Of a stretch of 64,000 bases of DNA, positions 2,467 to 58,254 are shown one piece after another. Under the pieces are notes generated by a model. It saw nothing but the letters and a program-made list of their open reading frames with translations, did no database searches and was not told the DNA's origin. The position numbers and the translations under genes were made by a program. The DNA is from Membranipora membranacea. Lineage: Eukaryota; Bryozoa; Gymnolaemata; Cheilostomatida; Membraniporidae. The stretch lies in assembly GCA_914767715.1 (NCBI GenBank), contig OU612073.1, forward strand, positions 7,936,001 to 8,000,000, given 5' to 3'. Each line of letters starts with the position of its first letter. Position 1 is the first letter of the stretch.

Positions 2467-5400
2467 CTATGCCATGTAGATGAATGTGTTAATGTCTTTG
2501 TCATCTCTCTGAATATATTTATTTTCTATGAGCCATTCTATTTGCTCCTTGATAAGTTTCTTAGAAGGTAAGAACATGTTTTTGAGCATTTCCACTAGTT
2601 CAGTCAGCAGGGCGGCGTTTGATAGACGCTTTCTCATTTTCATTATTGTTACTATGGCCTCCTGTGAAAAAAGCAACAAAAGCATTGTCTTCTACACTAT
2701 TGAGGAGTAAATATTAGCGAGTTTGAGGGTGACTTAATAATAGCTAGAACAAATTTTATTTAGCAGTGGTCGGAGCTTATATAAAAGAGGGGGATTCTCA
2801 GAATATGATTGATGACGAAATGCATTACCAACAACCCAAGGAGTCTTTAATCAACCTGGGCATCTTTTGAGCAATTTAACTAGGGATAGTAAATGTTAGC
2901 TATCCGTAAATTTCACTATTTCAAGCCTGCGTAAAAGCAAACCTTTCTTCCTGCGAAAACTTTACTCCTTTAAGGTAGAAGTACTAATGAGTGCCCTAAA
3001 TCATCACTCTGGATTGGATTTTTTAAGATAAATTTGTGAGAAATAGACTTTAATTTCTAGTTAGGCTGAGTTTCTAATTATCATTCTGCCATGTGGGCCG
3101 TGTGCTGAACGAACCTGTACTCTGAGTATACGTAGGTGTATGATAGCCTCACTATCCTCTTCACTTGATCTCTCTGTAGATAATTGTAATCGACCAATCA
3201 GACTCATCCTACCTCTCTTCTGTTGTTTCCCATTTTTACTGAAAAACACAAAAGGCAAAACTGTCTGGGTGGTCTCTCATGAGCGTCGATTTTTAAAGCA
3301 AATTAATAAACAGAAAATATATTGCTCATTAGATAATCTCTCAATTAGACATATTCATTACCAAATCATTCACTTAGAATGTATATATATATATATAAAT
3401 GAGTGTTCAACTTCGAAATGAGACCACTAGCAGGTTTCTCCCACTTAGCGAGTGAGCGATCAGTTATTGATATAGGATCTTTTAAATTGAAGGACTCTCT
3501 GGGCTTTTGAAAATTTTGTAATTATTCAAAGGTGTCAGAGAGAAAAGTTCAGACTAGATCGAGGACTATATACCAGACATGTCTCAGGGAAGTAGGCACG
3601 TTTAAATCAAAGGGTTGAAGCATTTTTCGTCCAGCAACAGCAGAATGAATCGCTTGGCCAACCCACAGAATTTCCTATTGAGTTACTTCTAGTAAAAAAC
3701 TGCGCCTGCACGACTTACATAAGACAAAACTGCTGATTGACAGAGAAGAGTGTAGTATCTACAAAATCTTTAGGAGTCGTAACTGATGGATGATAATTGA
3801 GTATCTGCCTCTTCAGTTTAGGAAAAGAAACCAAACTCTAAAACAATATATAAACAGGTAAAATATGACATGGGGCTTTTGATTCATTCATTTGCATTTA
3901 AAAAATTGAGCTGAATAAGTTGACCAATAGCAAATGATGAAAGTTCACTGGGCCTCAGGTGAGGTTGGATGACAATCAGCTGTAACTAAACCCAATGATC
4001 ATAGATCTAACAGCATCTCAGAGTGTGTGAAGACACTGTTGGCTTTCCCATGATGCAGATTAACTAACAAGCATGCAAACTCCAAGGGGAGAACTCTTAA
4101 AAGCTATCGAAATTGGGATAATTCAATCAAGCTTTACGGGTTGACATTTAATCCCAACACTGACATCAAACTTACATTATTAGGATGTGTTTCTCAGATC
4201 ATAATTGCCAATTTAATCTGAGTACCAAACATATGCCTGCTCCTTATTCTAGATATTTTGATGTCGGATCATCACATCAAATTGCTTCAGAGGATACTTA
4301 CACGTGAGTATCAGTTTGAACTTAAATCAAGTTTGATCCAGATCGTCTGTGGATAGGAGCAATTCCAAAAGCAGACAAACTGGATCAAACTTGATCTAGT
4401 TTGTACTCTATCTCTTGAATACTAGACTAAGCCTGTCCCAATTTGCCTGCATTCGGAGGTGCTCCCCTCCACTGATAAGCCACAGCGGAGGGGGAGGGGG
4501 CACCTGGAATGCAGGCAAATTGGATCAAATTTGTTCTACTCGAAGACACACATGCAATCATAATTCACATGATCAGTGTAAGCTTACCCATAATGTCCGC
4601 CGTAGTTCAGTATCCGGAAGCTGTGTGGATAGTCTGATACTCTCGAGGGACATTTCCTCGCCGGGTCGATCGTTCCATGCATAGAGAACAGACATCTGAA
4701 ATGTGGTAACCTCCAGCTCAAATTTCCCACACTCATTACTAAATGTGATCACACCTAAATATGAACAGAAGACAGTAATAAGTTGTTTTTTTTATACAAA
4801 ATATGGTCTATGATGTACAGTAGCTGTCAGGGTAGTAAAAACCTGAATGTAGGGGAGATGAGCCAAATATGTACATGCTTGATGGTATGTATATGTTAGA
4901 TAGTGCTGCTGGAAGGGAGTGCATGTGTCAAGCACTACCAAAACTAAAAATATGCCATAGATTACAAAATGTGATTTATCACAGTGATCATTAACAGAAT
5001 CAGGTTTTTGGTATCAATCTAGAGTTCTCAGTCTAATTTAGAATACTGTTCTAATCTCATAACCACCCTTGAGTTAGTTTCAACCGAGATAAGAAGATGC
5101 TAAAAAAGGTAGGCATTACTACTTTAAAAACACCGTCATGAAAATAGTACCTTTTCAGTACCTTCTCATTCCAACTATGAGTGCAAGTCAGTTGAAAATG
5201 GGTTACAGTTTTTTTATGAAATGAGAGCAGACTGTGAACTCTGAATGATACCAAAAACTGTCACAGTCATTTTTTACAAAATGAACATTTCACAACTATA
5301 GTGAGATATATCATTATTCAACCATTTATTAAATTATCATTATCCTACCGTTGGACATGAGGTTATTCCATTGTAGTTTCCTGCCGTTGTGTTTCCGCCT

Positions 5401-6747
5401 ATAGAACTCCTCCACACTTGGTACGAGGTCCTCAAGCTCTGTCGGTAAGGTCACAGATATTCTCTCACTGGCTCGAGCCCAGGCTCCAGCGTTCAATATC
5501 TTAATGTTCACGTCTGAAATACAATCGCATAACTACAATGTAATAATCGTTTATCGGTGGGCCAGATTTATATAATATTACTACACTTAATTCAGCTTAT
5601 GATGATATTCAAATCAAGATGAAAAAAGTTCCCCTTCTACTAGTAAGCCACCGGTGGCGGAAGGGGAGCAACTCCAAATTTGATTGATCTATGTGGAAAA
5701 GTGTAAACACTGATTTCTTATAGGGTATCTCCATCAGTGCAACAGATACATCCATTTGAGTGGGCCTACTCAACTCTAAAGGACTTGTATGTGATAACCT
5801 GAACTGTGGTTGGCTTTTGGGAAACAAACAGCACATTATTTACCTGTGTCCGGTGTAGTTACAGTGTTATATTTATTTGTGTCCGGTGAAGTTTCAGTGT
5901 TATATTTACCTGCATTAAGTGTAGATACAGTGTTATATTAACCTGTGTCCGGTGTAGTTTCACTGTTATATTTACCTGTGTCCGGTGTAGTTTCAGTGTT
6001 ATATTTACCTGTGTCCGGTGTAGTTTCAGTGTTATATTTACCTGTGTCCGGTGTAGTTTCAGTGTTATATTTACCTGTGTCCGGTGTAGTTTCACTGTTA
6101 TATTTATCTGTGTCCGGTGAAGTTTCAGTGTTATATTTACCTGTGTCCGGTGAAGTTTCAGTGTTATATTTACCTGTGTCCGGTGAAGTTTCAGTGTTAT
6201 ATTTACCTGCATTAAGTGTAGTTACAGTGTTATATTTACCTGTGTCCGGTGAAGTCTCAGTGTTATATTTACCTGTGTCCCATGTAGTTTCAGTGTTATA
6301 TTTACCTGTGCCCAGTGTAGTTTCAGTGTTATATTTACATGTGTCCCGTGTAGTTTCAGTGTTATATTTACCTGTGTCCCGTGTAGTTTCAGTGTTATAT
6401 TTACCTGTGTCTGGTGTAGTTTCAGTATTATATTTACCTGTGTCCCATGTAGTTTCAGTGTTATATTTACCTGTGTCCGGTGTAGTTTCAGTGTTATATT
6501 TACCTGTGTCCTGTGTAGTTTCATTGTTATATTTACCTGTGCCCAGTGTAGTTTCAGTGTTATATTTACCTGCGTTGGGTAGAGATTCAGTGTTATATTT
6601 ACCTGCGTTGGGTAGAGATTCAGTGTTATTCCTCGCAAGCTCCTTGAACTCAGTATTCAGATCCTCACTGACTTGTATATCTTGGAACATACGAGCTAGT
6701 TTATTCACATATTCAGCCGGCATTCCTATCTCCTGTTATAATATAGC

Positions 6748-6789
<42 letters not shown>

Positions 6790-9700
6790 TAATATACAGG
6801 CCTTATTATAATATAATAATAATGTAATATAAGGGAAAACTCAACAGTGAAAAAGACGCAAACCTCATATCATCAGTAGTAATGTTTTCACAAAATTTGA
6901 TGCAATAAATATCTTAGAAAAATGCTGCAAGTGGAATTTTCAGGAACTCTTCTATGGAGCCCCTTGGTTTGATTAAAATAGAAAAGTCACAACTTCCTTC
7001 CTGAATTTACTTGAGCCCTCAAGCTACTGAGAGAGAGTACAAGTTTAAAATGGCTCCTCAGGCCACACAAAGGGTTTAACGGTAATTTGTAATTATATTA
7101 AACATCTTCTTTTTTTTTTTTCTTTTTTTTACACTTTTATTGGCAGTCTATTTCATTCCAGTAGCGGAATGTTTTCCGAATAGTGCCGAAAAAAAAAGGA
7201 AAAGGAAAAGAGAAAAAAAGGAAAGCTTGAGACTGGAGATGAGTTAAAATGTTTCAGCAGTGAGGTGGAAATAGATAGGATGTCTTTGAGAAGAGAGAAA
7301 ATAAAAAAGTTAAGATATTTTCATTATAGTATTGTGCAGAGGCAAAACTTGTTGCAGAGATAAAAAGATAATGTTATAATTGAAACAAAAGATATTTGAA
7401 TACGCCAGATTTAAATGATGTTACTTTGCTCAGTAAGCGTATTGACAAAGGAAGATTATTAAAAGATGAAGCAATTGCAATGTTTAGTTTATCATTAGGA
7501 GGTAAAATAAGAAAATTATCGCGCTTGGGGTATCCTCGATTTCTAGAAAGAAAAAGATCATTAATATAGCTAGGTGTGATGTTATACATTATTCTTAGGC
7601 ATAGAGAGAACTAAAATATATAAGAAGACTAGGAAGTGGCAATATTTTTAAAGTACGACATAAGAAAAACGTATTTGATAATTGAACTGGATTGTAATGA
7701 ATATTTGCAATAATTCTTAGCGCAGCTTTCTGATAAACATAAAGTGAATCTAGCTGATATTTTGGACTGATATTCAAGAAAAATTGTATTCCATTTATGA
7801 TGTGGCAATGTATGAATTGAAAGTAAAACTGTCTGGCTGATTGTGTGGTCAAAAATGTTCTGCATAATTGTAACAAATTGGTATTTTTTTGTATATTAGT
7901 TTTTATGTATCCAATATGATTATCAAATGACATCGAATCACTAATTGTAAATCCGAGTAGTTTAGTGGTAGATGATTGTAACAGGGTGGTATTGGAGAAT
8001 TTCAAATCAAATTTATGTTTTACGTTGCCAAAAACAAGGTAATGGGATTTTTTTATATTTATGGTCATCCGATTATTATAGCACCATTCTTGGATGACAC
8101 CCAAGTCACCCCTACAATGTTGCTCCAGAGACTGTGGATCTTTCTGATGGCATATAAATACAGTATCGTCTGCGTATGCATAAGCAGTTGAGGACAAGGG
8201 TAAATTTAACATATCATTTATGAACACAAGAAATAAAGTTGGAGCTAAAATTGAACCCTGTGGGACACCTATGTTAATTGGTTTTTTTTCTGAAGCAATT
8301 TGATTATGAAATACATATTGTTGCCGGTCATCAAGAAATGATTTTATCAAGTTCAATGAGGGGCCAATTATTTTACAGGAAGCGAGTTTATTAAACAAGA
8401 TATCATGGTTTACACAGTCGAAAGCCTTACAGAAGTCCAAGAACATTCCTATAACACACCTATTTTTTTGCTTTTGGTGGAGCACATCTGACACCACTTT
8501 ATGTACAGCATCAGAGCAAGAGTAATTACTTCTGAATCCTGATTGAAGAGGGTGAATAGCTTTTATGTCAGTCAGGAAAGTCATTAAACATTTATTTATA
8601 TGTTTTTCAAAAATCTTTGACAATATAGGCAGAATCGATATAGGTCTGTAATTCGATGGATCATTCGGATCTCCACCCTTAAAAACAGGGGTTACTCTAG
8701 CTGTCTTCCAACATTCGAGGAAATCACCCTCAATAAGAATCTGATTGAAGATGTCGGTCAATATATTAACGACAAAAGGGAGCGTCTTTTTAAGCATCAT
8801 AACTGAGATACCATCAGGACCAGTCGATTTCTTATCAGAAAAAGATTTGAGATATAGGCAAATTGATGCAGGAGTAAATCTTTTAAAGTTAGACAAGAAT
8901 TTTTCCTGAGAGTTTGTAGGTTATATATTATCTCTGATTTCAGGGGTGTTTTTTGATTGATTTTCCTTTCTAAACCCATGACCTAGTATATCAGCGATTG
9001 TTGAGAAATGATTGTTCAGGTCTTTGCTGGTAAGAGTTGAAGAAGAACTAGAAGACTTTTTCTTTGTCTTTCCGATGTTGAGGGCGTCCCAAATTGGTTT
9101 TGTATTATTATTTGCTGAGTTTTTAACCAAACCAGAAAAATACGTCTTCTTTTTTTTGGTAATAAGATTTGTAACTAAATTTCTCTGCTTTTTGTAATCA
9201 TCCCAGTTTTGAGAGTGTTTTAGTGAATTCCTTATTTTCATTTGTCTAGAGACTTCAATATCAAGCCATGGTGGTGAAACTTCTGTCTTTACAAAACGAA
9301 CTTTCCTCCTAACATTTAGACTAATTTTCTCCAAAAACAACTGATTGAAACTTTCTATCATCTCACTAGATGACCTGAGATATCGAATGATATCCCAATT
9401 AACATCTGAAAAAGATCTGCGTAAATTTTCTGGGGTCGTTCTAGAAAAGTCATTGAAGCTTATTTTGAATTTTTTTACACTTGGGACAACACCTATTTTT
9501 CTCATGCTATATGTGAGATAGTGATCACTTACAGCTGTTTTTAATACTGAGGTATGTCGTAAGTTACAATCCTTATTTGTGTAAATATGATCAAGCAGGC
9601 TAGATAAATTTTCGCTGACACGTGCTGGCTCATTCACCATTTGTTTGAAAGAGAATCTGGAGAAAATTGGTAGCCATTTTTTCTTTCTGCTATTTTCCAA

Positions 9701-12700
9701 GAGATTTACATTAAAGTCACCAAGAATGATGACTTCTTCTGTGTGCTTGGTGCAACAATCTAGGTAGAGTCTCAAAGAGTCATTCCAAGAAATTAACGAG
9801 TTCGGAGGACGATAAATGAAGGAAATTAAGAAAGCATGAGAAGCTTTATGGCAAATTTTGATGGTAATAGATTCATCAATTATGTGATTGAAATCATTGA
9901 TTAATTCATACTGAATACCCTGCTTTATATAACATATTATACCACCTCCAGGTCGAGGTTTCCTATCTCTTCTTAACATATCCAAGCAGATATACGCACA
10001 TATAAATTAGGGTACTGGTTCGGGGAAAGGATTGTATATTATGGTACAAAAGTTGTGAATGGTAAATTTAGCGTTTAATACGCGTTATCCGATCCGAGGT
10101 TGAATTTATGAACCGATCCGATATCCGATCCGAGGTTGCCTAACCCCGATCCGTTCCACTCCTATACACTACACATAATGTAACCGTAGACAGAGATTAT
10201 TGTTCTATTAATCATGGATTTCTAACCATCACAATGTAGTAAATGGGAAACTCATACCTATAATAGCGAACAATAATCTCTGTCTACGGTTACATTATGT
10301 GTAGTGTATAGGGGTGGAACGGATCGGGGTTAGGCAACCTCGGATCCGATATCGGTCCATAAATTCAACCTCGGATCGGATTCGGATAACGCGTAAAAAC
10401 GCTAAATTTACCATTCACAACTTTTGCACCATAATATACAATCCTTTCCCCGAACCATTACCCTAATTTATATGTGCGTATATCTGCTTGGATATAATAC
10501 TTGACAAGGAGCAACCTATTCACTCAAACAGCGCAAGGATCACAGAAGCAGATTATTTGAAAAGGTCATCTAATGAGTGCAAAGGTCTCTTGACTACTAG
10601 CATCTGTGCATAGAGCCACTCAATTTGACAAGATCACTCAAACCCTGATGTTGAACAAACCTCCTGCTCCAATGTCACAAACTCTCTGTTGTGATTAGAA
10701 TAGGAATTGTCCTCCTACTCAAAAGAAGAAGATAACCTTGCTCATCACAAACCAGACACTTTGTTACAAAGAACATCATTGGGCAAACTTATTCACAACG
10801 ATCTGAGTAAAGATGCTTCTATCATTTTCAGCAGAAAAAAAAACACATCCATCAAACTTAATCAGCAATGATAGATAGCAATGAAAATGAGATAGGTATT
10901 GAATGCCTACTGATCACCACTGAGTGGTTTTAGCCAAACTCAATTATCTTATCTGAACCCGAGACTATAGATATAGAGACCTTCCACTTGCGCATAAAAT
11001 GCGAATAGCCAATCAGCGTTATTTAGCGGTCACGCCCACTTCTGGTTGTATAGTAAGCGCTGCTGCCTTAGACAGCAATGGCTTTCTCAATAAAATTTCA
11101 GGTTTTTCACCTGAGTTATTTGAGGCAAAATAACCACAATCTTGATGACAAAACCAGATCAGACAGCAACAAAGTCACTATCAACTTGTTGTTGTATTCT
11201 TAGCCAGAGATTTATATTATACAGGCCTTTATTTTTGTAAGAAAGTAAGGGGGCTGTGCAGTATAATCCATCATTGTTGCCCACTGCGATGTAATGATGG
11301 CCTGCCATAGGTTAGCTGTTGTAATGAGTTTCACGGACAAAGTTTTCATGTGTGAGGACAAGAGGAAGAGGGCTTCTTTTTGTTTGTTAATATATGCTCT
11401 AAGATTAATATAAAAAAATTTAATCATGGTGACTAGTACCAACCATACACACACATTCAAAACTGAAGTAAGAATGGCATCAGAGTAAAGTGCATCGTCA
11501 GCAGATTCATACTGACAATTCAATGCTGACAAATGTAAAGAATTTACTGCATTGAGATATAGAAGACCTCCCTCTCTGCCTCAAAGTTATTGTGGGATGG
11601 TTGGGGCTATGGAAAGCTTATTTTTACAAATCGCCTTGAAAACTTGTTTGGGCTTCATAGACATATTCAGAGCAGTTCAAAGCACATATCTTCAGGCAAC
11701 AATCAGCAGTATGCTGACTTAAAACGGGAAAACTTAGACTTTTTGAGGATGATACTTTTCTCAGACCTATGCTATAGAAAGTTTCTGTGCTGACCTAACT
11801 GATGAATTAAATTCAGTCACCGGAACTGGAGAATATAACATCAGTGCTTGTTCACATTTAACTATTTTCACATTGAATATTCAATTTTCTATACATATGG
11901 GGGCTACATTACCAAAAGGTCATCCACCAAGTATTTTGTTTCCTTGATGCCTATATTTTATATAAAAGTCGCACATCTTAGATTTCATTTGTCCCAGTTG
12001 ATATTATTGAGAGTTTTGTGTGAATGTACTTATAAAATAAACAGCTAAATCATTCACCTTGTCAATTTTTGATAGCAAATTCATAGCACTGGGTACGCTT
12101 ACCTCCAAGCAATTACCACCAGAAAGGGGCGGAGCCTAATTTTCAATGTGTTCGCATCGGTTATATACGTTATCATGGCAAGTGGAAGGTCTCTATATCT
12201 ATAGTCTCTGTCTGAACTACAAATTAATGACTATCACACTTCCTTCCTTGTCAGTTTTAGTGAGATAAATATGATGCTAAGTAAGTGTTGATTAAAAACG
12301 TATCATCTCGGATCAGACAAAACACATATCCGATCCGGTTTGTGGTTGGATCCGAGGTCAAATATCCGAAATTCAACTCCAACCTCAAGAGGTCGTTCCA
12401 CCCCTAGTAGTGTACATCAACATTTATATTATGTGGTGTATTGTATACCTATGATTATGATTATGAAAACATTATAAAATATAGATATTGTTTTATGATG
12501 CTATTTACATAACATTGAATTTCATATATATATCCACAATTATTTACTACCATAAACATATATAATATATATATAATTATTATGTATATCACATATGTTT
12601 ATGGTAGCTTATTATTGTGGAAGAATAACTCACCCTAAGCCAGTCGACCATATTCTCTTCGATCTCATTATCTACTGATGTCTCTAGTATTAACCTTCTG

Positions 12701-15700
12701 GTCAGATGAGCTTTGTGAAATCTCATAAACACATCTTTATTCTGTACATACTTGAGCACCAACAACTGCAAACAATAAAAAAAAACAAAAAAACTACCAA
12801 CTAGTTAACAACCTAAAACAATCTTAAAAAACAATAAACATTAATAATATATATATATATATATATATATAGTTATATATAATATGTAAAAAATCTTGTT
12901 ATGACATTATTACCTCATCCATGCACATCTTCAATTAATTATGTCAAACTCTGCCCTAGTTAGTGGTAGTGGCATTCCATAGTCAAACACATCTGGCAAG
13001 GATATCATCTGATCATCTGATCATGGCTTTTGCTACCACAACTCTACAGAGTTTGAGCATTAAAACTAAGGTAGGGTCAATAACCGGAGTGCATTATATA
13101 ATAGTGTCTTAGCTTATTTCCTTACGAAATAACATTTAGGGGCATGTTCCACATCCCCATAATGTTATATTAGAACCATTTTAGAACTTACCAAGTCTCT
13201 GAGTTTCTTTTCAATCTCATCCGAAGTTAATTTTTTACTGAGCGCTGTTTTCCTGAGAAGCATATCAGAGTAATTAGCCAGTAGCTCCGGACATTTGGAT
13301 TCTGGTTGACTTTTACTGGCTCTGAAACACAGAATAGAATTGATACAGGGCACTAAATTCATAAAATTCTCTATTTTACCTTTGAAAATCCACTTTATAA
13401 AAAGAAGTGCATCTAAAACTTCAAAGTTCCAAAATTCGATTATATTGTAATCCACAAATTCAACAACTCTTGGACAAGTCACCAAATTTAACTCTGTTAA
13501 TGTCGGTTTGTTTATAATGCATAGCAATTGAATTGAAATAACGCAAAAGATCATTTGGCTACTACTATCTCTAGACTTATAGATATGTTATATACATATT
13601 AATTACTAAATATGTGCACTGTAGTTGAGGCTTAAAATTGGTCCGCATAGATCAAGTTTGGTCCACCTGGCCTGCAATTCAAGTTGAATCAATTTTGAGG
13701 GGGTGCAACTTCAAATTCAAGCAAATTGGATAAAACATGAGCTAGATCCTCATGACAAGGTTACCTACATACCCTTTAGCTTTAGTAGGTAGGTCCAGTT
13801 TGAATACTGATGTATCATTGACAAGACTCTTATAAGCCATATCACGGGCTGTAAGAAATCTAGCGTCCATCATAAAAGCTTTGGATACGAGCTCTGTGAA
13901 CCGCCTAAACAGCCCTAATAACTTCTCAACGTACTGCTCGGAATCCTACAATCAATTATAGCATCACTTGACCTTACAAATAATATGCACCCAATCAAAC
14001 ACAATTTCTTTTCATTCTGCTAAAATGATGAAATGTGATGACATGAAATAAAATATATAGGATAAAAAGCAAGGTAACAGCTATATAGTCCAGGGACTAG
14101 AGAAACAAATGTCCCAACTTTCCTGCCTAAAAGCCCCAGGACGCACCAATGAGCCGCAATCTGGAGTCGCTGCCCTTACCAAATACTGGGGCACACAGTC
14201 GCTCCATCAGGCCATTCATGGGATTGGACTAAAACCTCCACTGCCATCAGGTATCTGTTAGCTGGTCCGGTTACTGGTAGTGGCATTCAAAGATCACCCA
14301 CAGACTAATAACAATCGCTGGTTGATGTGTGGTTATTAATGGAATGTCACAACCACACACCCAATGAGAGTTTAAGCATTTCAAGGACTGTTTGTGAAAA
14401 AAAGATATGTATGGTGGTTGTATGAAACACATAATATCTCATACCGATGTTATGAGGTCAGCACATGCATGCATGTCTGACAGGCCGGCTTCTTTAATAT
14501 GATGCTGTAGGTCATGTAACATCGGTAACACTCCGTCATCAACTCGATCCATCAACTTAAACATCATCTCCAATTCTGTAAACAAATACAACAGAAAAAT
14601 TAAGGGTGATTTTGGACATTTCTGCACTTTTTCGATACACTTATTTTCTTACACTTCATGAAAGAATAGACATTGTACCATATTGATTCAGGTAATGTTA
14701 ATCTCTCTTCTATTCTATTATTTTTGTTGAAACTCATTGCTCTAATCTGAATGAGTTTAGTTCTTCAATGCATTTTTTGTGCTTTGCTATTTATATATTG
14801 GAATGCGGAGAGCCACATGCTAAGAAATATTTGTCAACAAAAAAGGCTTACAGAGATTATGTACAAGGGACAAGACTGTTAATCGCACTTGTCATACTAG
14901 TGGTGGAGTTGTACTTACTTTGCGTTTCGTTTGCTTTGATCATATTCGCACATTCTGCTAGAATTGTATCCTTGAACTTCACAACCAGTACTTTTACACA
15001 ACAGTCTATCAGCTAGAATAAAAATCAATCACATCATCATGATGGCAGACCAGACAAAAATTATTTTGGAGTTGTCTCCTCTTCCCCTAAGACGTCGCAG
15101 CCCCAATGTCATAATAATGTGATGTTAGACTGAAGAGTAAGAGTGGTTTACCTCCACTCCTGCATGCTGAATATCAAAGTTCTTTTTATAGTTTTTTCAT
15201 CATGTATTTTTTCTAATACTTGGTCATTTTTCTTATGAATTAATACTTATATGTAACAGAATTTCAAACCACTCCAATTTGAATCATCGTTTCAATGCTT
15301 TGTGTGAGAGTTTAATTTTATAGTGTAGGGGTATTCGATGAGAAGAGATTGTTACCTCAGCACACCTGATTAATTTAGAACCAGAAGGTAATCTCTAGAA
15401 AACGAGTTCTATAAGAGTTCTATATGAGTTCTACAAGAGTTACTATATGATTACCATGAAATAACCACTTGTGACTCTTAGGAACTTACTTTAGTTACAG
15501 AAACGCATCCTTGACTTGTCTCTAGATACCTCTTAGCCCGGTCCTCTTCCTCTGTCAGCTTGGTTTGGGCGTACACCATGTACTCCTTCACTCCATACTG
15601 AGCCAGAAACTCTGAGGCTTTACTCATATAAAACTGAACTGTCGTGTCGATGTAGGCCTTCTCAAAATTCTCTTTGTATATTGCTAACTTATCCTCCTGT

Positions 15701-16438
15701 CCGATGCCGAGGTTCACTGAAAAATAATTTAGTCATCTTGATATATCCAGCACATTGGCTTACAGTGTGGGGTTTGATACAGATCATCAACTTGAAGGGT
15801 ACCCTATTATTGACAGTTTTGAAGGACCTAGTAGTTCAGATCCTTCCACATTATCCTGCCTAACACTGCTGTCCTCAAGATTTTCAAGAGAAAAGGTGTA
15901 CCACCAAAATTTTCAAACGAGATCTACCATAGAAGAGTAAAAATTAGCTAGAGTTAAGCTTAGCTATTTCGGAGGTGACTCAATGAGAGATAGCAGCAAT
16001 TTACAGTGGTCAGGTAGGAAGATTAAATTTAGTAATGAATATGGGTAAATATGAGCTAGCCATGAACTTCACCATTTCAAGCCTGGCTGAAATGGCAAAC
16101 CATCATCCTGCGAATACTTTTCCCTCTAGGGTATTATAACCTTCTCTGCAATTCAAGAGATATAGAAGTGATAAAATAGATAAAAACTTAAGTAAAATGT
16201 AAAAATGTGTACCATATGATTCCCGGACTCCAATGACTAGCTGTGAATCAAAAGCCTCTCCGCATCTCTCCTGCTGTATGAGAAGCATAGCTCCTTCCTG
16301 AAGGCGGAGCTTAATCTCCGAAAATATACTCTCATTCCAGCTCTTCAGCATCAACTGTGGCAATCACAATAGGTAAATTACTTATATAATGATCACAGGT
16401 AATGGCACCACACATCATTATACGCATAACCATATGTA

Positions 16439-16479
<41 letters not shown>

Positions 16480-18357
16480 GCAAGTATTTACATGTTCATG
16501 ATTACAAGGTTGTCCTAGGGCAATCACTATGGATGCCAGTACTGGTGATATGCAACTTAACCTGATACAGGTATATGTAACAAAGATATCGGATTTAATA
16601 AGTCCATAGGCTGTCAGCGGGTTTCAAATATGCTAACATGAAAATACAATAATAGGTTAAAGCAGAAGGTAGTGTTAGTGCTTAAACTCTGTTCAGATCG
16701 CTAATAGTGGCATTCAATATCCAACCAACTCTGTAGTGGCATTTGGATATTAAAGGAATGCCACTACCACCAACTCACGATGAGTTTGAGCAATAAAACT
16801 AGTATGAGGATGATGTTGCATTTGTTGAACATTCATTAGCATCATAAAGACATTGATAATTGCTTACATCTTTGACTATTTGTTCTTCTTTCTTCTTGAG
16901 TGAGTTTTGAGTTGTTTTGCCCCTTAGCCCGGTTTCTAAGCTCTGAAAGGGTAGGGGGAGGTAACCACACTGAGCGAAGAACTTCTCCCACTCATGGCAG
17001 TAAGCCTTCAGTAATACTGAGCTATCAAGGTGCTGTAATACTCTCTACAATAAGGAGGTAAGATTGGATTAATCGAATCGTCACATCCTAGAGATTCAAC
17101 AGCAAAATATCTGTTGCCTGTAAGATGAGGCTCCATTCATAGCACCATTCTCTCGGTATACAGCGAGCTCTAAACACACCAGGGACAACAAAAAAGCCCT
17201 GTAGAATTTCAATATGGTTCAAACTAGAAATCAAACCCTATATGTAATCACAATGTCTTTATAATACATTGCAATTAAAACAAATGATTGCCCAACCATA
17301 TTAAAAGAACATAGTGAATTGATGAAGACGCCCAGGTGGCTTAGTCAAATTTAGGGAGTTTGAAGATTAAAAAGGAACAAAGGAAAATTTAATAGCTACT
17401 AAATGGTTCAGTTTCACTTACTGCCTGAGCTTGGTTAATAAAATGTCTGATATCATCATGTAATGCTTTGTGGATCTTCTTTGGACTGCTGTCATCCCAA
17501 GAGCAAATAGTGGAAACTTTCCTAAAACAGAAACAGTACATGGCTAAATAGGCATCCTTTATTACGGTTCATACAGTTCTTGGTGTGATGGGCCTGTACC
17601 TGAAAAAAAACATCAACGAGATTGAAACACAATAGGGTTACACAGGTGTCCCACATTCAAACAAACTGGTCAAGGTCGGTGATAATGTGTCAACGATTAT
17701 GTATCCAATTGATAATTTCTATCATTTTGCTGAATAATTGGAAGAAGGCCTCCATCTTCGTTTCAGTTAACACTGTCTCTAAAATTGTTTGAAGGTAGTC
17801 TGGCATTACTGTCTATCTTCCATCCAACCGATTTGGCGGGTACTCCATAAATGTAGTGTAACAATAACCATCAAACGACCGAAAACTATCACAGTAACAA
17901 CCGGTAGTTAACTTACCAGAACAGATCTTGCCACTCGTTCCTAGACACATCATCCTGTCTGAGTAGTTTGAGTAGAGTAGGTCTGACTGCCGGCCATTCC
18001 TCCTCAAATGTCAGGGTGTTGTTAGCCTAAAAGTTATAGAAATGCATGTATCAATTTATTACATCACCTGCTTATATAGATTAGTAAGAATCTCATAAAT
18101 CATTATCTTGATCTGCTGGGATCTAAATCCAAAATTGATCTCTAATTGACAGAACCGTAAATATTTTGGCTAATTTGTGATTGAATCTATCTAGTTGTAA
18201 GACCAAATGAGCGATAATTTTGAGCGAAGGGTTGGGGATAATTTATTTTGAAGAGCATCGTTCACTCTTATTGAAAGACCCCCAGGTTTGCGTACAACTG
18301 ACACACCGTTGGCCATCTTTATAGGTCAACCCGAGCCTTATAACTTACCCTCAGCAT
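2467..18357 (-). CDS. CUL5: Cullin-5, scaffold of CRL5 ubiquitin ligases (17 exons, complete)
   Basis: Cullin-5 is the scaffold of SOCS-box/Elongin BC/RBX2 ubiquitin ligases. Coding exons on the minus strand, all with AG/GT boundaries: 18349-18357, 17917-18026, 17422-17521, 16868-17044, 16213-16354, 15490-15716, 14919-15012, 14445-14575, 13773-13945, 13192-13321, 12634-12765, 6603-6732, 5349-5513, 4588-4754, 3719-3837, 3115-3238, 2467-2661. They sum to 2325 nt, or 774 residues, against 780 in human CUL5, and align along the whole protein. The three-codon first exon (MLR) is the least certain part. Diagnostic stretches include GEAFDSQLVIGVRESY, the cullin-homology segment KYVQNKDVFMRFHKAHLTRR, and the C-terminal winged helix ending INTFIYMA. 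The NEDD8 acceptor lysine is K718 in IMKMRK, equivalent to human K724. Intron 11 (6733-12633) is swollen by transposons. Exon 12 adjoins a 33-bp repeat that multiplies its splice donor, so longer in-frame isoforms are possible. Confidence 0.95.
3270..3512. mobile_element. MITE family C copy, degenerate
   Basis: Outer ends resemble GGTGGTCTCTCA and AATTGAAGGACTCTCTGGG, with a subterminal GCGAGTGAGCGATCAG box. Copies with the same GTCTTTCAATTAGA ends and GAGTGAGCGAT boxes lie at about 18.2 kb and 25.7-25.9 kb. The left part borders a cullin-5 exon. Confidence 0.5.
4434..4535. mobile_element. MITE family A copy
   Basis: A palindrome with TTTGCCTGCATTCGGAGG on the left and CACCTGGAATGCAGGCAAA on the right, followed by the family end TTGGATCAAATTTG. 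The centre is C-rich then G-rich. It lies in the cullin-5 intron between the exons at 4588 and 3837. Confidence 0.75.
5842..6629 (-). repeat. 33-bp minisatellite made of the exon-12 tail plus its splice donor, 24 copies
   Basis: On the plus strand the motif TTACCTG and its variants recur every 33 bp from 5842 to 6601 without one indel (24 sites). Read on the minus strand, each unit is about 25 nt of exon tail ending in CAG plus about 8 nt of intron start GTAAATAT. The first copy inside the intron repeats the authentic exon end; later copies drift towards GAAACTACACCGGACACAG. GT is kept in 22 of 24 copies, lost only at 5875 and 6106; the copy at 6337 has CAT before GT. The exon frame stays open through the copy at 5941, where GGT-TAA closes it. 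Each extra unit would add 11 residues of the type KYNTETTPDTG. Confidence 0.95.
6603..6732 (-). CDS. CUL5: Cullin-5 exon 12, the exon whose 3' end was amplified
   Basis: This 130-nt exon encodes EIGMPAEYVNKLARMF and continues to NNTESLPNA, matching the same region of human CUL5 (EVGMPADYVNKLARMF to NNKLALPAD). The donor at 6602-6601 (CAG/GTAAAT) gives a phase-1 junction to exon 13 that restores an aspartate (residue 519) followed by VNIKILNAGAW, exactly as expected from the family. The first donor therefore gives the ancestral protein. The acceptor is preceded, on the minus strand, by an (ATT)n microsatellite that may stand in for the pyrimidine tract. Confidence 0.9.
6748..6789. repeat. (AAT)n microsatellite next to the exon-12 acceptor
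   Basis: An uninterrupted AAT run on the plus strand lies about 16 nt upstream of the cullin-5 exon-12 acceptor as transcribed. In the transcript it reads as U-rich (ATT)n, so length changes could affect acceptor strength. Confidence 0.85.
7110..9980 (-). mobile_element. 5'-truncated non-LTR retrotransposon (LINE), endonuclease and reverse transcriptase
   Basis: A minus-strand copy inside cullin-5 intron 11. The upstream part (9985-8921) is an exonuclease-endonuclease-phosphatase domain lacking its start, with SFIYRPPNS, ILGDFNVN and SDHYLTYSM. A single TAA at 8923-8921 separates it, in the same frame, from the reverse transcriptase (8896-7595, 433 residues). That part has LDFCKAFD at 153-160, GVPQG at 210-214 and the catalytic YADD at 241-244. 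The C-terminal tail continues in another frame at 7589-7374, so there is also a frameshift near 7590. An A-rich tail on the minus strand (plus-strand T run near 7110-7130) marks the 3' end. The organisation fits the Jockey/CR1 group; the clade is not certain. It is probably immobile. Confidence 0.9.
9978..10495. mobile_element. Foldback element with about 230-bp arms
   Basis: Left arm 9978-10206 and right arm 10268-10495 are near-perfect reverse complements around a loop of about 60 bp. The arms contain repeated GGATCGG/CCGATCC-type words. The left tip abuts the 5' end of the LINE at about 9980. Related degenerate sequence with the same GATCCGA words occurs at about 12300-12412. No coding capacity is seen. 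I infer a non-autonomous DNA element; no target duplication could be fixed. Confidence 0.85.
10959..12210. mobile_element. Non-autonomous TIR DNA transposon, hAT-like, 7-bp target duplication
   Basis: The terminal inverted repeats begin CMGAGACTATAGATATAG. They are identical over about 31 bp after the second base, and similarity continues further in, including CGCCC near TTCTGG at both ends. The element is flanked by an exact TCTGAAC duplication at 10952-10958 and 12211-12217. The CAGAGAC terminus and 7-8 bp target site suggest a hAT relative. The interior shows no transposase; short open frames at 11212-11532 and 11590-11793 look random. It lies in cullin-5 intron 11. Confidence 0.8.
12300..12412. 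repeat. Degenerate relative of the 10-kb foldback element
   Basis: It contains GGATCAGAC, ATCCGATCCGG, TGGATCCGAGG and TTCCACCCCTA words in the same style as the arms at 9978-10495, but it is short and unpaired. Confidence 0.5.
12847..12871. repeat. (TA)n microsatellite
   Basis: A perfect TA run inside cullin-5 intron 10. Longer relatives lie at 16443-16477 and 52119-52139. Confidence 0.9.
12943..13069. mobile_element. MITE family B copy
   Basis: Ends resemble CAAACTCTG and CAGAGTTTGAGCATTAAAACT, with a subterminal GTGGTAGTGGCATTCC-type box shared with copies at 14.3, 16.7, 24.1 and 39.1 kb. It sits in a cullin-5 intron and has no coding capacity. Confidence 0.6.
13649..13749. mobile_element. 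MITE family A copy, degenerate
   Basis: It starts AGATCAAGTTTGGTCCA and ends GGATAAAACATGAGCTAGATC with CCTGCAATTC in between. It is the same element class as those at 4.4, 24.0, 44.2, 51.1 and 57.3 kb. Confidence 0.65.
14262..14380. mobile_element. MITE family B copy, degenerate
   Basis: It shares the GGTAGTGGCATTC box and a GAGTTTAAGCATT end with the other family B copies. Internal palindrome around GGTTGATGTGTGGTTATTAA. Located in a cullin-5 intron. Confidence 0.55.
16443..16477. repeat. (TA)n microsatellite
   Basis: A perfect TA run inside cullin-5 intron 4, able to form a cruciform. Confidence 0.9.
16677..16802. mobile_element. MITE family B copy
   Basis: Terminal TAGTGCTTAAACT pairs with AGTTTGAGCAATAAAACTA. 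Inside, GTGGCATT and AATGCCACTACCACC form a second inverted pair. Located in a cullin-5 intron. Confidence 0.65.
18165..18292. mobile_element. MITE family C copy, degenerate
   Basis: It contains GAGCGATAATTTTGAGCGA and ends with TTATTGAAAGACCCCCAGG, the same terminus as the element ending at 25932. It lies in the first cullin-5 intron. Confidence 0.5.
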
Positions 18358-47069: not shown

Positions 47070-47470
47070 TATTGGGGTTTGGGGTTGGCAGCCTGAGGTA
47101 TGTGAGCCAAATTTGGGGTCAGCTTTTGGGGTTTAGGGGTCAGGTTCGGGGTCAATATTTGGGGTTTGCAGTTCGCAGTTTGGGGTTTGCAGCCTACACT
47201 TTGGGGTTCACGGCCTACTTTCTGGGGTTTGGGGGTCATAAACGAGGGTTTGGGGTTTAGGGGTCATTTTTTGGGGTTTGAGGGTCAATATTTGGGGTTT
47301 GCAATTCGCACTTTGGGGTTTGCAGCTCACAGTTTGGGGTTTGCACCATGAATGAAGTTTGGGGTTTGCAGCTCGCATTTTGGGGTTTGTAGCTTGAAGT
47401 TTTGGGTTAAGAGCTGGCAATGTGGGGTTTTTGGGGTCAAAAGCGGATTCAGGGTTCAACAGTTGGGGTT
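47070..47470 (+). repeat. Degenerate TTTGGGG-type tandem array, G-quadruplex prone
   Basis: About twenty TTTGGGGTTT or GGGGTT cores recur every 15-30 bp, joined by TGCAGCTCGCA- or TAGGGGTCA-like links. A partial higher-order period of about 133 bp is visible: GGGTCAATATTTGGGG occurs at about 47148 and 47282. The strand asymmetry is strong, with G on the plus strand only. Open frames across it on both strands are by-products of the repeat. Confidence 0.9.
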
Positions 47471-48275: not shown

Positions 48276-49025
48276 CCAAAGCAACCTCAAATTGAGCACT
48301 CAAACTAGTGTGTACTGTATCCTGACTACCTTTTGTCACCATCATATGAACTGCTACAGCCGGCCCCTTGTAGACATTTGTCGAGTCACTTGCCTGAGTT
48401 TTTAAAGCTCGTTACTGGGACGTCAGCCAATGCAAGCGATAAAGCTGCCAGAATTTTGGCTAGATCCAATTACTGAAACAAAGTTATATACTGATGATAT
48501 TTCTCCACAAATAGCCATACTGTGTATTTTACAACCAATCCATAAATTCATATCAATGACAGTTGACATTTAATACTTGTTAAAATGTTGGTTGAAATCA
48601 CAAGGTTATGCCTCAGTCTGAAGACTGAGAAATTAAGGACTCATAAGTGAGTGGCCGTTATATTCAGCGCCATCTTTCTCTCAGTTTGCAGGCAGTCTAG
48701 AGCACACCTGAGCTTCAGAGCCCAATAGTCAGTCGACTGCAGAAGGATTTGGACTTAGCACATGTAACACTCATATGTCACTGGTCATGCGCTTAAGCCA
48801 ACTGACCAACTGAAAAATTCAACCTGTCATTGCCATATTTGAGAGGATGAGATTTGATGATAATGACTGTTCCAGCTTTAACTTGTCAACATTTCCCCAT
48901 CTGTGGCAGACTTGGAGGTTGACACAGCTAATGAATCTGATGGTATATTTTATATGGTGATTGAGTTTTAGTCTGATCGTCTCTTTAATATAAATAATTG
49001 ACTGACTGTATTTTTATAATTTTAG

Positions 49026-49178
49026 TACGACTTGTGTTCACCCGATAACAAGCTATGCATGATGAGGGCATGCTTTCATCCTCCAACATCCTTAGTAGAG
49101 CAAGCTAGGATGCGTCAGCTGAAAAGAGTGGTTAGCTTTATACAACAACAGCATCAGCAACAACTACAACAACTGTGA
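49026..49178 (+). pseudogene. Orphan exon 3 of the ankyrin-like family, copy A
   Basis: A preserved acceptor (ATTTTAG/TACGAC) starts a 50-residue frame. YDLCSPDNKLCMMRACFHPP matches YEMCSPENELCAMLECLHPS of the gene at 31515. It ends in a glutamine run and a stop, and lacks the C-terminal third. No exon 1 or 2 lies upstream. Confidence 0.7.
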
Positions 49179-50087
49179 CATCAACAGCAGTTAAAACCAC
49201 AGCAGTCACAGCAACAACAGTTACAGCAACAGCAGCAAATCGTCCATCCAATCAGATGGGCATGAAAATACGATGTTCAGGACACAGGGTTGAATGCAGA
49301 GTATGGTGGTAGGGCTTTTGTCTCTCGTCCTACTTATATTATAATACACTACACATATTATACTTATGTGATTGTAATAGTTTATTCATACCTAGATATG
49401 ACACTTGCTGTAGACGTTGCTATATTAACCAGATCACTTCCCTCTCACTCTAGTGCAGGGACAGTAACTTCTCTGATTTCAATATTCTTAAATATGGCTC
49501 CTTTATGACAGGGGAACAAAACTTATGATAAATTGGAAAAAAAATTGAAAACAATAATGAATGAGTTGCCCACTCTTTCAACAGGTAGACATTACTCCCT
49601 AAAACCCTTAACAAGCTTCTGATGCAGCTAATCTCGTCTTCTCGGAAAAGATCACAGATGATCTTAAATTGTTACCTGTTTTTTTTATTGATGCACGCAT
49701 TCCAATACTTATCTTTCTAACTGTGCAGTTTTTTAATACTCATAATATTGTTTTCGAAATTAAATATTAGTCTATTCTTGCAACATAACAGAAAAGTTTA
49801 TAGTGGCTTCTTGAATAGACCGTCTGAAGAGCTTTGCTTTTCGAGTGGATGATTCCTGACCATAACCAAACGAATCAACTAGTCAAGACAGGCCAGCGTT
49901 AGTTATGGATGGTCCATTCCTTTGATAAAAATTGTATGGTTTTATAGCGCATGTCTCTGGATCACCACATAGACTTAATAATACAACTATAATAAATAAT
50001 TATAATAAATTATTCAGTATACTGATCACCATCATTATTATGACATATGAATGTAGGAATCCTACAGTGCCACAGGTGCTCACTTCT

Positions 50088-51958
50088 TTATTGGTCTTGG
50101 TTGCCTTGAGGTTTATTCCTCTTCCAGCCATACAGGGTACCCTTCCTGTTCTTAGTGTCAAACACCTCACTGGCCGTTACTCTCTTCTCAGTAACCTTCA
50201 AGTGTTTGCGCATAGCCTCAAATCTCTTCATCCCCTCCAGAAACTTTGCTTCTTCTTCCTGATTCTGAGGCTATAAAAGATATCAAATAAATTTGAAATT
50301 GAACCCACAATGCTTGGAATTCAAGTCATCAGCAAACATGCATATACTGATATTCATGATGCATTTAAAAATTGCAACACCAGTGTTAATATTAAGGTGA
50401 GTACAAAGAACTATACTGGGCGTGATTCACATCCATGGGAAAAGCAGAGTTATGAACTCAAGCACAAGGAATGGTAAAATTGAAGGCTTGTTATTCTTGA
50501 CCATCAAATATTTTGGTTTAAAAAAAGCTCCAAAAGGAAACGTGGAAGGGGATGACAGTGTCTCTGGTCTTAGTGTGAAGAGTATCAAGTTTGTTAGTTG
50601 CATTGTGGTCCTTCTATCTAAGAAAGCCCTCTGGGATCGTCTCACCTTTATTTGTGCTACAGGAACGATCCTATGCTCGTTGTTGAGCGACAGGAAGCAG
50701 AAGTAACCCGCAGCCACTCGTTTAGTCTCCAGCTGTTGATCTAGTAACAGTTCGATGTCAGCTAATACTTCGACCTCTGCAACACGCTTAGACGTGAACG
50801 AGAGACACGCATAGAATATCATCAGAGAACCTGGGAAGTAATAATCACATTCTAAACGCTGAAGACAGACATAACAAAATGATAATTTTTTTCTTAGTAG
50901 TATGGGGAGTATCGGTTACATAGAGATGTAAAATGTAAGAATAGATCATAACATACTCAACTGACAGTGCGAATGTCCCTCTCGATTATTGCCTAATGAA
51001 ACCACTCAGCGTCAAGAGAATCTGTGTTCAAAAATTTTAATTTTTGATTTTGAACACGCGATTGTTTGATGGGGATAATAACTAGATCAAGTTTGGTCCA
51101 TTTGCCTGTATTTAGAGTTGCTTCCCCTCCACTGGTGATGCCGCTGGCCCTTTTGCCTGCGACGTGACCAGTGGCAGGGGAGCAACTGGAATGCAGGAAG
51201 ACCGGATAAAACTTGATATGAATATAAACTGCCATTGTGTATTGTCGGGATCTCAATTAATCCCAAAATAACCTACTAATCCATTGGATTAATTTCACTA
51301 ATGACAAAATGATATTGTCTGCACATTTTGCCTTATCATGGCCGATGAGGTCATGCAGTGAGATAAAAACAAATTCCAGCTATTGGTGTAGTATAGCCTG
51401 AAAGAGTCCATCATTCTTAGAAAATACCAGATGTCACAATGATGAGTTCTAAGGACCCGTCCATCAGATAGGTCGAACTTATAGGAAATCCGAGGATTGA
51501 GATAGATGACAGTTCAATGAAGATCAAGTCAAAACAGTGGAAAAGGCCTAGGTCTTCTTTGACGGCCATAAATTAACAAGGTGATGGGTTAGAAATTGCC
51601 ACATATCAATGCAGTTTAAGCGCTCTAGCTTGGCTATGCATTGCTACTTCCAGCTATCCCGGCACAGTTTGAGTTCTTAAACTAATATCAATGCAACCTA
51701 TAGGCTAGATTAAAGGGAAAGGAAGCAAAGTTTCACCTCTAGGAACGAGCTCAAGAAAGTTGAAATGATATCCGGAAGATGTCTGTACTTCGTTTCCTCT
51801 TGAGTGTTTGGATGCTACTAGATTAGCGCATTCCTCCATCATGCTGATAACAGCTCCGCAGTGCATGTATGTGTGAGTGCCACAATCGTGTATGTCTGCT
51901 ATATGGGTGAGCACACTCTCAGAGAAACGCCTGCTCGACTGTAAAATCTTACTACCAC
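50088..51958 (-). CDS. Acyl-CoA thioesterase (hotdog fold), last three exons, copy A
   Basis: Exons 51737-51958, 50646-50830 and 50088-50270 join in phase (1/1/0) and read through to TAA. The protein has the ACOT7/ACOT11/12-type hotdog layout: THTYMHCGAVISMMEECANL (the long helix), then a basic-residue SKHSRG, LELVPRGSLMIFYACLSFTS, KRVAEVEVLADI, and a GYFCFLSL strand. A charged tail with PQNQEEEAKFLEG follows, as at the end of ACOT hotdog domains. Such enzymes hydrolyse acyl-CoA to free acid and CoA. The 5' exons are not adjacent; they may lie beyond 61 kb or be missing. The stop codon overlaps an AATAAA. A frame preserved through three exons argues this copy is used. Confidence 0.8.
51083..51217. 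mobile_element. MITE family A copy in the thioesterase intron, copy A
   Basis: TAGATCAAGTTTGGTCCA at the left and CCGGATAAAACTTGAT at the right, with a CCCCTCCACTGG / CCAGTGGCAGGGG core palindrome. The same insertion is present at 57303-57438, so it predates the duplication. Confidence 0.75.
51612..51684. mobile_element. MITE family B copy, copy A (also at 57832 and 60813)
   Basis: AGTTTAAGCGCTCTAGCTT and CAGTTTGAGTTCTTAAACT are the inverted ends. The copies at about 57832-57902 and 60813-60883 came with the segmental duplication, not by independent insertion. Confidence 0.65.
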
Positions 51959-52736
51959 CTGCAGAGAAGACAGGGTGTGTTTAAATCTGCACATCTTGAT
52001 TTCAAAAGAATTTAGAGATAGTCGTGTCTAAACGGCTGGACAAGTTTTGTTTCATATAATATTACCCTAAATAAATAAATATTAGCTAGTGATAAGTAAG
52101 TAGAGCAGCTAAGTAATTTATATATATATATATATATATTATATATACATAATATATTATATAATTGGTTAGTTTGAGGGCGAAGAAAACAAATCTGGAA
52201 TTTGTAGTGTCAGAGACACATAGTCTCTTTTTCCATGTCTGGCATGATTAAAACAATTAGCTTTGCATCTGCCTCTGTCATAGACAATGGTAACCATAGA
52301 CATGTAATTTATATGTTTATGACTATAACAATCATCAAGGCACGGCTTGTTGTGTCAATCGCAGTATTTTCATGACAGCGATAGAAATTGGGAAATACAG
52401 CAAGTTTTTATCAGCGAAAAATGTCGCATCACTGCGCTCCTAAGTCATTTGACCTTGACACGGAAGATATTCAAAAGGCAAAGAATAATTAGCTTAGAAG
52501 CAAAAAATTGTATTCCCGACATGAGCCATAAAAAAACTCATTATTATTATTCTACACTTTTATATCATCCTGGCTTTACACACAAATAATCTTTTTTTTT
52601 GCTTTTTGTTTCGCTGAATCACGGTAGAGCAAGAACAGAAGAAACGCCCATTTTAGTGTCTGTCCAGCCTTCAACCTGTCAGCGACACAATAAATAATCG
52701 ATCAATTTAACATTCCAGTTTAGTAAGAGCAGAGAA

Positions 52737-54377: not shown

Positions 54378-55341
54378 TTCATGATTTATCCATGATTAAT
54401 AATACTATCTTTGTCCTTGAAGTCTTTGGTGTTAATTATATTTCGATCAATCTCATCAATTCCATGAATCCTTCCTGTTATGAAGCTTTCTCTGTCTCTC
54501 CCCTATGTTGTAGTGTAAGGATGACATCAGATGTGACTAGACAAATTCATATCATCATCATTAATATGTCAACATGTTTAAGAATGTGCCAAGATTCATG
54601 ACTGATTGTACTGTCATCGAAATTAATTGATTGAATATTCATTTGATCGCTGTATCCTGACTATCTTTTGTTACCATCATATGAACTGCTACAGCCGGCC
54701 CCTTGTAGATATTTGTCGAGTCACTTGCCTGAGTTTTTAAAGCTTGTTACTGGGACGTCAGCCAATGCGAACGATAAAGCTGCCAGAATTTTGGCTAGAT
54801 CCAATTACTGAAACAAAGTTATATACTGATGTTATTTCTCCACAAATAGCCAAACTGTGTATTTTACCACCAATCCATAAATTCATATCAATGACAGTTG
54901 ACATTTAATACTGGTTAAAATGTTGGTTGAAATCACAAGGTTATGTCTCAGTCTGAAGACTGAGAAATTAAGGTCTCATAAGTGAGTGGCCGTTATATCC
55001 CGCGCCATGTTTCTCTCAGTTTGCAGGCTGTCAGTAGACTGCAGAAGGATTTGGACTTAGCACATGTAACTCTCATATGTCACTGGTGATGTGCTTAAGC
55101 CAACTGACCAACTGAAAAATTCAACCTGTCATTGCCATATTTGAGAGGATGAGATTTGATGATAAACACTGTTCCAGCTTTAAGTTGTCCACATTTCCCC
55201 ATCTGTTGTTGGGTGTGTGTGTCAGACTTGGAGGTTGACACAGCTAATGAATCTGATGGTATATTTTATATGGTGATTGTCTTTTAGTCTGATCGTCTCT
55301 TAAATATAAATAATTGACTGACTGTATTTTTATAATTTTAG

Positions 55342-55494
55342 TACGACTTGTGTTCACCCGATAACAAGCTATGCATGAGGAGGGCATGCTTTCATCCTCC
55401 AACATCCTTAGTAGAGCGAGCTAGGATGCGTCAGCTGAAAAGAGTGGTCAGCTTTATACAACAACAGCATCAGCAACAACTACAACAACTGTGA
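55342..55494 (+). pseudogene. Orphan exon 3 of the ankyrin-like family, copy B
   Basis: Same frame and stop as the copy at 49026, with two residue differences (MRRACFHPP and VERARMRQ). Its acceptor (TTTTAG/TACGAC) is intact. No matching exon 2 was found between this and the relic at 52737. Confidence 0.7.
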
Positions 55495-56335
55495 CATCAA
55501 CAGCAGTTAAAACAACAGCAGTTACAGCAACAGCAGCTAATCGTCCATCCAATCAGAAGGGCATGAAAATACGATGTTCAGGACACAGGGTTGAATGCAG
55601 AGTATGGTGATAGGGCTGTTGGCTCTCATCCTACTTATATTATCATACACTAATGACACTTGCTGTAGACGTTGCTATGTTAACCAGATCACTTCCCTCT
55701 CACTCTAGTGCAGGGACAGTAACTTCTCTGATTTCAATATTCTTAACTAATGGCTCCTTTATGACAGGGGAACAAAACATATGATAAATGGGAAAAAAAT
55801 TGAAAACAATAATGAATGAGTTGCCCACTCTTTCAACAGGTAGACATTACTCCCTAAAACAAGCTTCTGATGCAGCTAATCTCGTCTTCTCGGAAAAGAT
55901 CACAGATGATTTTAAATTGTTACCTGTTTTTTTTATTGATGCACGCATTCCAATACTTATCTTTCTAACTGTGCAGTTTTTTAATACTCATAATTTTGTT
56001 TTCGAAATTAAATATTAGTTTATTCTTGCAACATAACAGAAAAGTTTATAGTGGTTTCTTGAATAGACCGTCTGAAGAGCTTTGCTTTTCGAGTGGATGA
56101 TTCCCGACCATAACCAAACGAATCAACTAGTCAAGACAGGCCAGCGTTAGTTATGGATGGTCCATTCCTTTGATGAAAATTGTATGGTTTTATAGCGCAT
56201 GTCTCTGGATCACCACATAGACTTAATAATACAACTATAATAAATAAATATTATAAATCATTCAGTATACTGATCACCATCATTATTATGACTTATGAAT
56301 GTAGGAATCCTCCAGTGCCACAGGTGCTCACTTCT

Positions 56336-58176: not shown

Positions 58177-58254
58177 CTGCCATTGTGTATTGTAGGGATG
58201 TCAATTAATCCCAAAATAACCTACTAATCCATTGGATTAATTTCACTAATGACA

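Follow-up and report, generated by a model that had tools for sequence, protein, structure and literature searches.

A 64-kb window of the Membranipora membranacea genome (the window being the whole stretch of DNA that was analysed) contains a cullin-5 (CUL5) gene in which a 33-bp minisatellite spans an exon-intron junction and has amplified the native 5' splice site (donor). Because the true donor lies inside the repeat unit, 20 of the 24 copies bring with them a donor of equal local strength, and because the 33-bp unit inherited the open exon frame, growth of the array costs little at any of the first 20 donors. The explanation that we favor, at a probability of about 0.65, is that of a neutral junction-spanning minisatellite in which the first donor dominates and a low, unselected in-frame leak reaches the donors that follow it.

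The array itself is real and unusually regular. TRF reports one strong array at positions 5837-6629 (minus strand), with a period of 33, 24.0 copies, 89% matches, 0% indels and a score of 1215. Registered on the splice junction and read on the minus strand, the unit is ATAACACTGAAACTACACCGGACACAG/GTAAAT or a variant thereof, in other words 27 exon-side bases followed by GTAAAT, and the G of donor k is found at 6602 - 33k for k = 0 to 23. As expected for a variable number of tandem repeats (VNTR) that contains a donor, an authentic 5' splice site lies inside the unit and recurs once per unit, and, counting from 6602 in steps of 33 bp, GT is retained in 22 of the 24 copies; copies k = 15 and k = 22 have AT. 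The complete motif CAG/GTAAAT is present in 20 of 24 copies, the exceptions being k = 8 (CAT), k = 15, k = 20 (GTTAAT) and k = 22, and AGGT is present in 21 of 24 units (absent from k = 8, 15 and 22). A donor-centered pattern of 18 bases, with up to 3 mismatches allowed, matches 23 times in the window as compared with a mean of 0.05 in 100 shuffles, so that chance does not account for the donor array. In a 200-kb sample drawn from 20 stretches, three minisatellites of at least 5 copies were found, the longest with 15.3 copies, and the three-donor pattern was absent from the same sample; viral contigs contain no exact match to a 24-base segment of the unit.

The exon frame continues open through successive units until a TAA at 5938-5940 (ORF 5938-6735, minus strand). 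The GTTAAT of copy 20 supplies this stop. The 21 donors from k = 0 to k = 20 share the reading frame of the exon; GT is present in 20 of them and the full CAG/GTAAAT in 18. On the minus strand they extend from k = 0 (GT at 6601-6602), which gives the protein its usual loop length of 27 residues (discussed below), through k = 1 (6568-6569), situated in an exact copy of unit 0, to k = 20 (GTTAAT at 5941-5942), the last in-frame donor. Spliced translations gain 11 residues with each donor, to a maximum of +220, and the full models are 771 aa (k = 0) and 991 aa in length. The in-frame stop is followed by two further donors with GT, k = 21 (5909) and k = 23 (5843), whose use would yield an mRNA with a premature stop. 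These counts bear out a preliminary description of the locus, made from the sequence alone, which had proposed a 24-copy minisatellite without indels formed from the end of a cullin-5 exon and the first bases of its intron, with GT in 22 copies, mostly as CAG/GTAAAT, and a frame open over 21 copies (20 with GT) that could add 0-220 residues. The same description had extended the donor series to 5513, however, where the next exon begins; donor-like sites go no further than 5843.

The located part of the host gene is intact. The minus strand was translated with stops as X and compared exon by exon with PDB cullin-5 sequences, by which 16 coding exons were located at 2467-18026 (minus strand); the alignments, the splice joins, the resulting 771-aa translation and Pfam together define the gene, and separate comparisons bear out the two exons that flank the array. 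Beginning near the N terminus, the reading frame is unbroken as far as the stop, and all 15 placed splice joins keep it. The exon with the start codon was not found in the search of the locus, and the numbering used here, in which the array exon is exon 12, presumes one undetected 5' exon carrying the ATG. Pfam scores for the 771-aa protein are 513 bits for Cullin and 68 bits for Cullin_Nedd8, and its best match is cullin-5 across both the cullin and the Nedd8 domains. The exon that holds the first copy of the array (6603-6732, minus strand) is 130 nt long when measured from the first donor and is bounded by the acceptor AACAG/GAG and the donor CAG/GTAAAT. The next exon (5349-5513, minus strand; acceptor GTATTTCAG/ACG) is 165 nt long, and its skipping would keep the frame. 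From k = 0 the array intron measures 1089 nt; among the other 14 cullin-5 introns, 13 measure 343-750 nt and one measures 5901 nt.

This 5.9-kb intron, upstream of the array exon, contains LINE-like ORFs at 7595-10495 (minus strand). One is a reverse transcriptase ORF that matches LINE-1 and R2 proteins, a second is endonuclease-like by eye, and a self-inverted match at 9978-10495 adjoins them. In a tree of 39 cullin-5 rows, the terminal branch of the cullin-5 in the window is 0.94 changes per column, as compared with a median of 0.088, and its placement is unsure; the protein may be fast-evolving or may be without close relatives among the 39 rows.

The position of the array within the protein provides a first indication of which donor is ancestral. 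The junction falls between the conserved motifs RMFQD and NIKILNAGAW, in a loop that we take to link the four-helix bundle to the alpha/beta subdomain within the C-terminal part of cullins. Loop length was surveyed in 240 matches from two protein searches (the best 120 of 803 and the best 120 of 347) and could be measured in the 223 of these in which both motifs were found, with the 17 that the expression did not match excluded. Across these 223 of 240 listed matches, the gap between the motifs is 20-40 residues, the commonest values being 26 (n = 105) and 27 (n = 57), and none of the 223 has a loop longer than 40. In Membranipora the loop would be 27 residues from donor 0 and, in steps of 11 residues, 38 from the second donor, 49 from the third and 247 from donor 20; one extra unit is within the range of the measured homologues and more units are outside it. 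The k = 0 loop of 27, which matches the homologue mode of 26-27 (223 of 240 listed matches), supports the first donor as the probable source of the ancestral protein, as the preliminary description had held. Extra residues at this place are seen in the Owenia fusiformis cullin-5 (P0015), where nine of them (GTQFKSFMR) fall precisely at the array junction; they perhaps reflect a downstream in-frame donor or intron read-in, and may be an error in the gene model. The best-scoring homologue (P0001, 934 aa) was considered as a carrier of the repeat and rejected, its duplicated stretch being its own sequence and other than the array repeat.

How a splicing apparatus would choose among so many similar sites is less readily predicted. 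The 20 CAG/GTAAAT donors pair equally with the 5' end of U1, at -8.3 kcal/mol for a human-type U1 sequence, and the other 14 located cullin-5 donors span -4.1 to -10.1 kcal/mol against the same human-type end. Folding of the array RNA gave no structure that would hide or expose donors, as 20 of 20 shuffles fold at least as well (z +1.5), and the donors are probably accessible for that reason. Given equal pairing with U1 and no special RNA structure, therefore, sequence alone does not indicate the winning donor.

Published cases, taken as analogies, lean to the first donor, ABCA7 (described below) among them. In Caenorhabditis elegans unc-73, a copy of a donor doublet situated 18 nt downstream is chosen less often than the original doublet (PMC8865678). 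In DOK7, by contrast, the choice between two donors that lie 11 nt apart favors the intron-proximal one, which is also the stronger, and the repression of the upstream site by SRSF1 was weaker once the two had been given the same sequence (PMC5585400). Several U1 may bind alternative sites, with the surplus then purged (PMC8283771), and the available portions of two other papers (PMC8724738, PMC6660495) contain nothing that alters this picture of donor choice. Mini-introns were also considered, as each 33-nt unit runs from GT to AG, and were thought unlikely, no pyrimidine tract being seen by eye.

Comparison of the copies with one another illustrates how the array has changed since it formed. 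All 33 bases agree between copies 0 and 1, and each of the other 22 copies differs from them at 6-8 of 33. Copies 2-23, which stand at this distance from copy 0, show only 0-2 differences from their nearest copy; being far from copy 0 and near each other, they indicate that the array has followed an evolutionary course separate from that of the coding copy. Several copies recur as groups (2 = 9, 5 = 10, 13 = 14 and 4 = 17 = 18 = 19, with 12 near 21), which points to duplication of units and blocks.

Read in the exon frame, copies 1-23 contain 24 distinct variants, comprising 17 nonsynonymous, 6 synonymous and 1 stop. As copy 1 carries the exon's own state, a recount was made without it, and copies 2-23 then contain 21 distinct variants (15 nonsynonymous, 5 synonymous and 1 stop), to be compared with 72 nonsynonymous, 23 synonymous and 4 stop among the possible single changes in the unit. 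Omega is about 0.9-1.2 depending on the transition bias assumed, and one stop equals the chance expectation. Variation in the array thus looks near-neutral in the exon frame, with counts small enough that weak constraint is still compatible, and it gives no sign of coding constraint on the array peptide. Selection to retain the GTs is likewise unsupported, conservation being unexceptional both for GT (P = 0.57 for copies 1-23, 0.63 for copies 2-23) and for the donor 9-mer (P = 0.18 and 0.28, respectively).

Two features of the copies are less even and were weighed as signs of constraint on the rest of the unit, a reading that was set aside. The 15 middle bases of the unit, a block picked after inspection and containing a CpG, hold 17 of the 24 distinct variants in copies 1-23 (P = 0.011) and 14 of the 21 in copies 2-23 (P = 0.04). 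Moreover, all 6 differences between copy 0 and the consensus fall within 13 adjacent positions (0.0015, or about 0.05 when corrected for the choice of window), a clustering that is no more than suggestive. The multiple-of-3 unit and the 24 copies without an indel mildly favor donor use, as both would be more expected if downstream donors were used, about 3-fold for the register by our own estimate.

Under the explanation that we favor, the array would have started when a single exon-intron junction was duplicated, and would have expanded within the intron, to judge from the copies, through slippage or unequal exchange. Cullin-5 would be made chiefly from the first donor, and a small unselected leak to the next donors would give some +11 and, rarely, +22 or longer protein, much as one unit is retained in ABCA7. 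Counted against this explanation are the intron-proximal preference in DOK7, where that site is the stronger, and the genuine ladder in UBC.

An isoform ladder, in which many of the 20 in-frame donors would be used to a sizeable extent and a Thr/Asn-rich linker of 0, 11, 22 or more residues would follow a spectrum set by copy number, is unlikely, yet a serious alternative. Eighteen identical full-strength in-frame donors, a frame open over 20 further units, an array RNA whose lack of special folding probably leaves the donors accessible, and a loop that already varies between 20 and 40 residues among the 223 measured homologues (of 240 listed matches) would all suit such a system, and UBC does yield an in-frame ladder of units (PMC10809524). 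The near-neutral ratio of nonsynonymous to synonymous variants nevertheless lends the ladder no evolutionary support. None of the 223 measured homologues (of 240 listed matches) has a loop above 40, and the repeat peptide is in none of 7,991 candidate proteins scored, a set from which records near this genome may be omitted. For ABCA7, moreover, the sole donor rung described in the available part of the report is one unit, at about 2%, and does not grow with array length (PMC5954066). That such a ladder is also graded, with the loop between the two cullin subdomains lengthened by 11 residues per donor over a range set by minisatellite copy number, making the array an in-frame heritable length dial, is a shade more doubtful than the ladder itself.

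A quite different possibility is that choice is intron-proximal, so that the last donors (5909 and 5843) often win and the array adjusts or reduces the amount of cullin-5 made. Because TAA precedes these two donors, mRNAs spliced from them would be unproductive. Such a preference has been reported for the competing DOK7 pair (PMC5585400), longer ABCA7 arrays accompany lower mRNA (PMC5954066), and use of k = 23 would leave an intron of 330 nt, near the 343-750 nt usual in this gene, as compared with 1089 nt from k = 0. The gene is intact across all located exons, however, which argues that productive splicing has been kept, and both the duplicated C. elegans doublet and ABCA7 favor the upstream donor (PMC8865678, PMC5954066); we regard this possibility as improbable.

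Still less probable is that splicing relies mainly on the second donor (k = 1), which would make both copy 0 and copy 1 coding. The identity of these copies over 33 bases, when the other 22 copies differ by 6-8, might indicate that the second is the true donor, and its loop of 38 is within the measured range (223 of 240 listed matches), but recent duplication accounts for the identity equally well and a 27-residue loop is one of the most frequent lengths in the measured homologues (223 of 240 listed matches). Finally, tandem arrays are prone to mis-collapse or mis-expansion in assembly, and an artefact might be proposed on this general ground. The private variants of the copies in ordered groups, together with the length of the array (about 0.8 kb) in an assembly, tzMemMemb1.1, made from 66-fold HiFi reads (PMC10290214), render an artefact scarcely credible, although the copy number could be off by a few.

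Other repeats are found elsewhere in the window. A segmental duplication joins 48315-51962 and 54650-58180, in pieces 92-97% identical over about 3.5 kb; it carries matching ORFs at 49929-50276 and 56177-56524, and a further partial copy lies at 60509-61299. ORFs overlapping in two frames occupy 58253-60396 (plus strand), between two of the duplicated segments, and presumably encode a LINE-like reverse transcriptase. At 47158-47408 there are arrays of a 21-bp TTTGGGGTTTG-type unit.

The statement in the preliminary description that no such case was known does not stand, as the unit of the human ABCA7 VNTR includes the exon 18 donor GT (PMC5954066) and UBC forms an AGGT ladder (PMC10809524); through ABCA7, the donor-containing VNTR is already known as a kind. 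As far as the literature matches listed show, drawn mostly from open-access papers, what is new is the in-frame register, the presence of 18 in-frame donors at full strength and the occurrence in cullin-5. Eighteen donors of equal local sequence and spacing in a native gene amount to a natural experiment on how a choice is made among identical 5' splice sites. Because their register is in frame, unlike that of ABCA7, nonsense-mediated decay (NMD) would not necessarily mask the use of donors 1-20, and junction counts would be directly readable. Use of downstream donors would show how change in copy number can convert the beginning of an intron into a coding linker; if they are unused, the first donor would be strongly dominant among near-equals.

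Among known systems, ABCA7 is the closest. The human reference carries 23.7 copies of a 25-bp unit that starts with the exon 18 donor GT, and the first GT is the canonical donor (PMC5954066). The ABCA7 intron 18 VNTR and the cullin-5 array have in common an authentic donor inside a minisatellite, a site at an exon-intron junction and about 24 units. They differ in that the ABCA7 unit is 25 bp, is out of frame and starts at the intron's GT, whereas the cullin-5 unit is 33 bp, includes 27 exon bases and is in frame. Two ABCA7 frameshift isoforms are given as "14 +/- 6 and 2 +/- 1%, respectively," the second of which is taken here as one-unit retention; frameshift transcripts rise with cycloheximide, and their share is independent of VNTR size (PMC5954066). 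Skipping of the next exon does depend on VNTR size and is commoner than unit retention, at 12-45% by tissue (PMC5954066). As retention of the ABCA7 unit shifts the frame and exposes the transcript to NMD, the 2% may understate use of the second donor; rungs in cullin-5, being in frame, would escape such clearance. The ABCA7 VNTR is also polymorphic in length, longer alleles having less mRNA and more next-exon skipping, while the cullin-5 array is known from the sequence of one haplotype; the genome paper also lists an accession for the alternate haplotype (GCA_914767555.1; PMC10290214).

The human polyubiquitin gene UBC represents another paradigm, a tandem array of dual-specific AGGT splice sites that gives a ladder in RT-PCR (PMC10809524). 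Like the cullin-5 array, with AGGT in 21 of its 24 units, it has AGGT at a fixed multiple-of-3 spacing, and retention or removal of units leaves the frame intact. The UBC unit, however, is a 228-nt coding monomer whose amino-acid sequence is highly conserved, whereas that of cullin-5 is 33 nt long, near-neutral and located at an intron start; conserved coding modules of the UBC type are not seen in copies 2-23, where the 15/5/1 variants, in small numbers, compare with 72/23/4 possible. Moreover, AGGT serves in UBC as both donor and acceptor, and the cullin-5 unit has no pyrimidine tract before CAG by eye. Proposed intron gain through repeat growth likewise places splice sites within tandem repeats, but in cullin-5 the amplification has affected one donor side, at the beginning of an intron that we infer to be older than the array.
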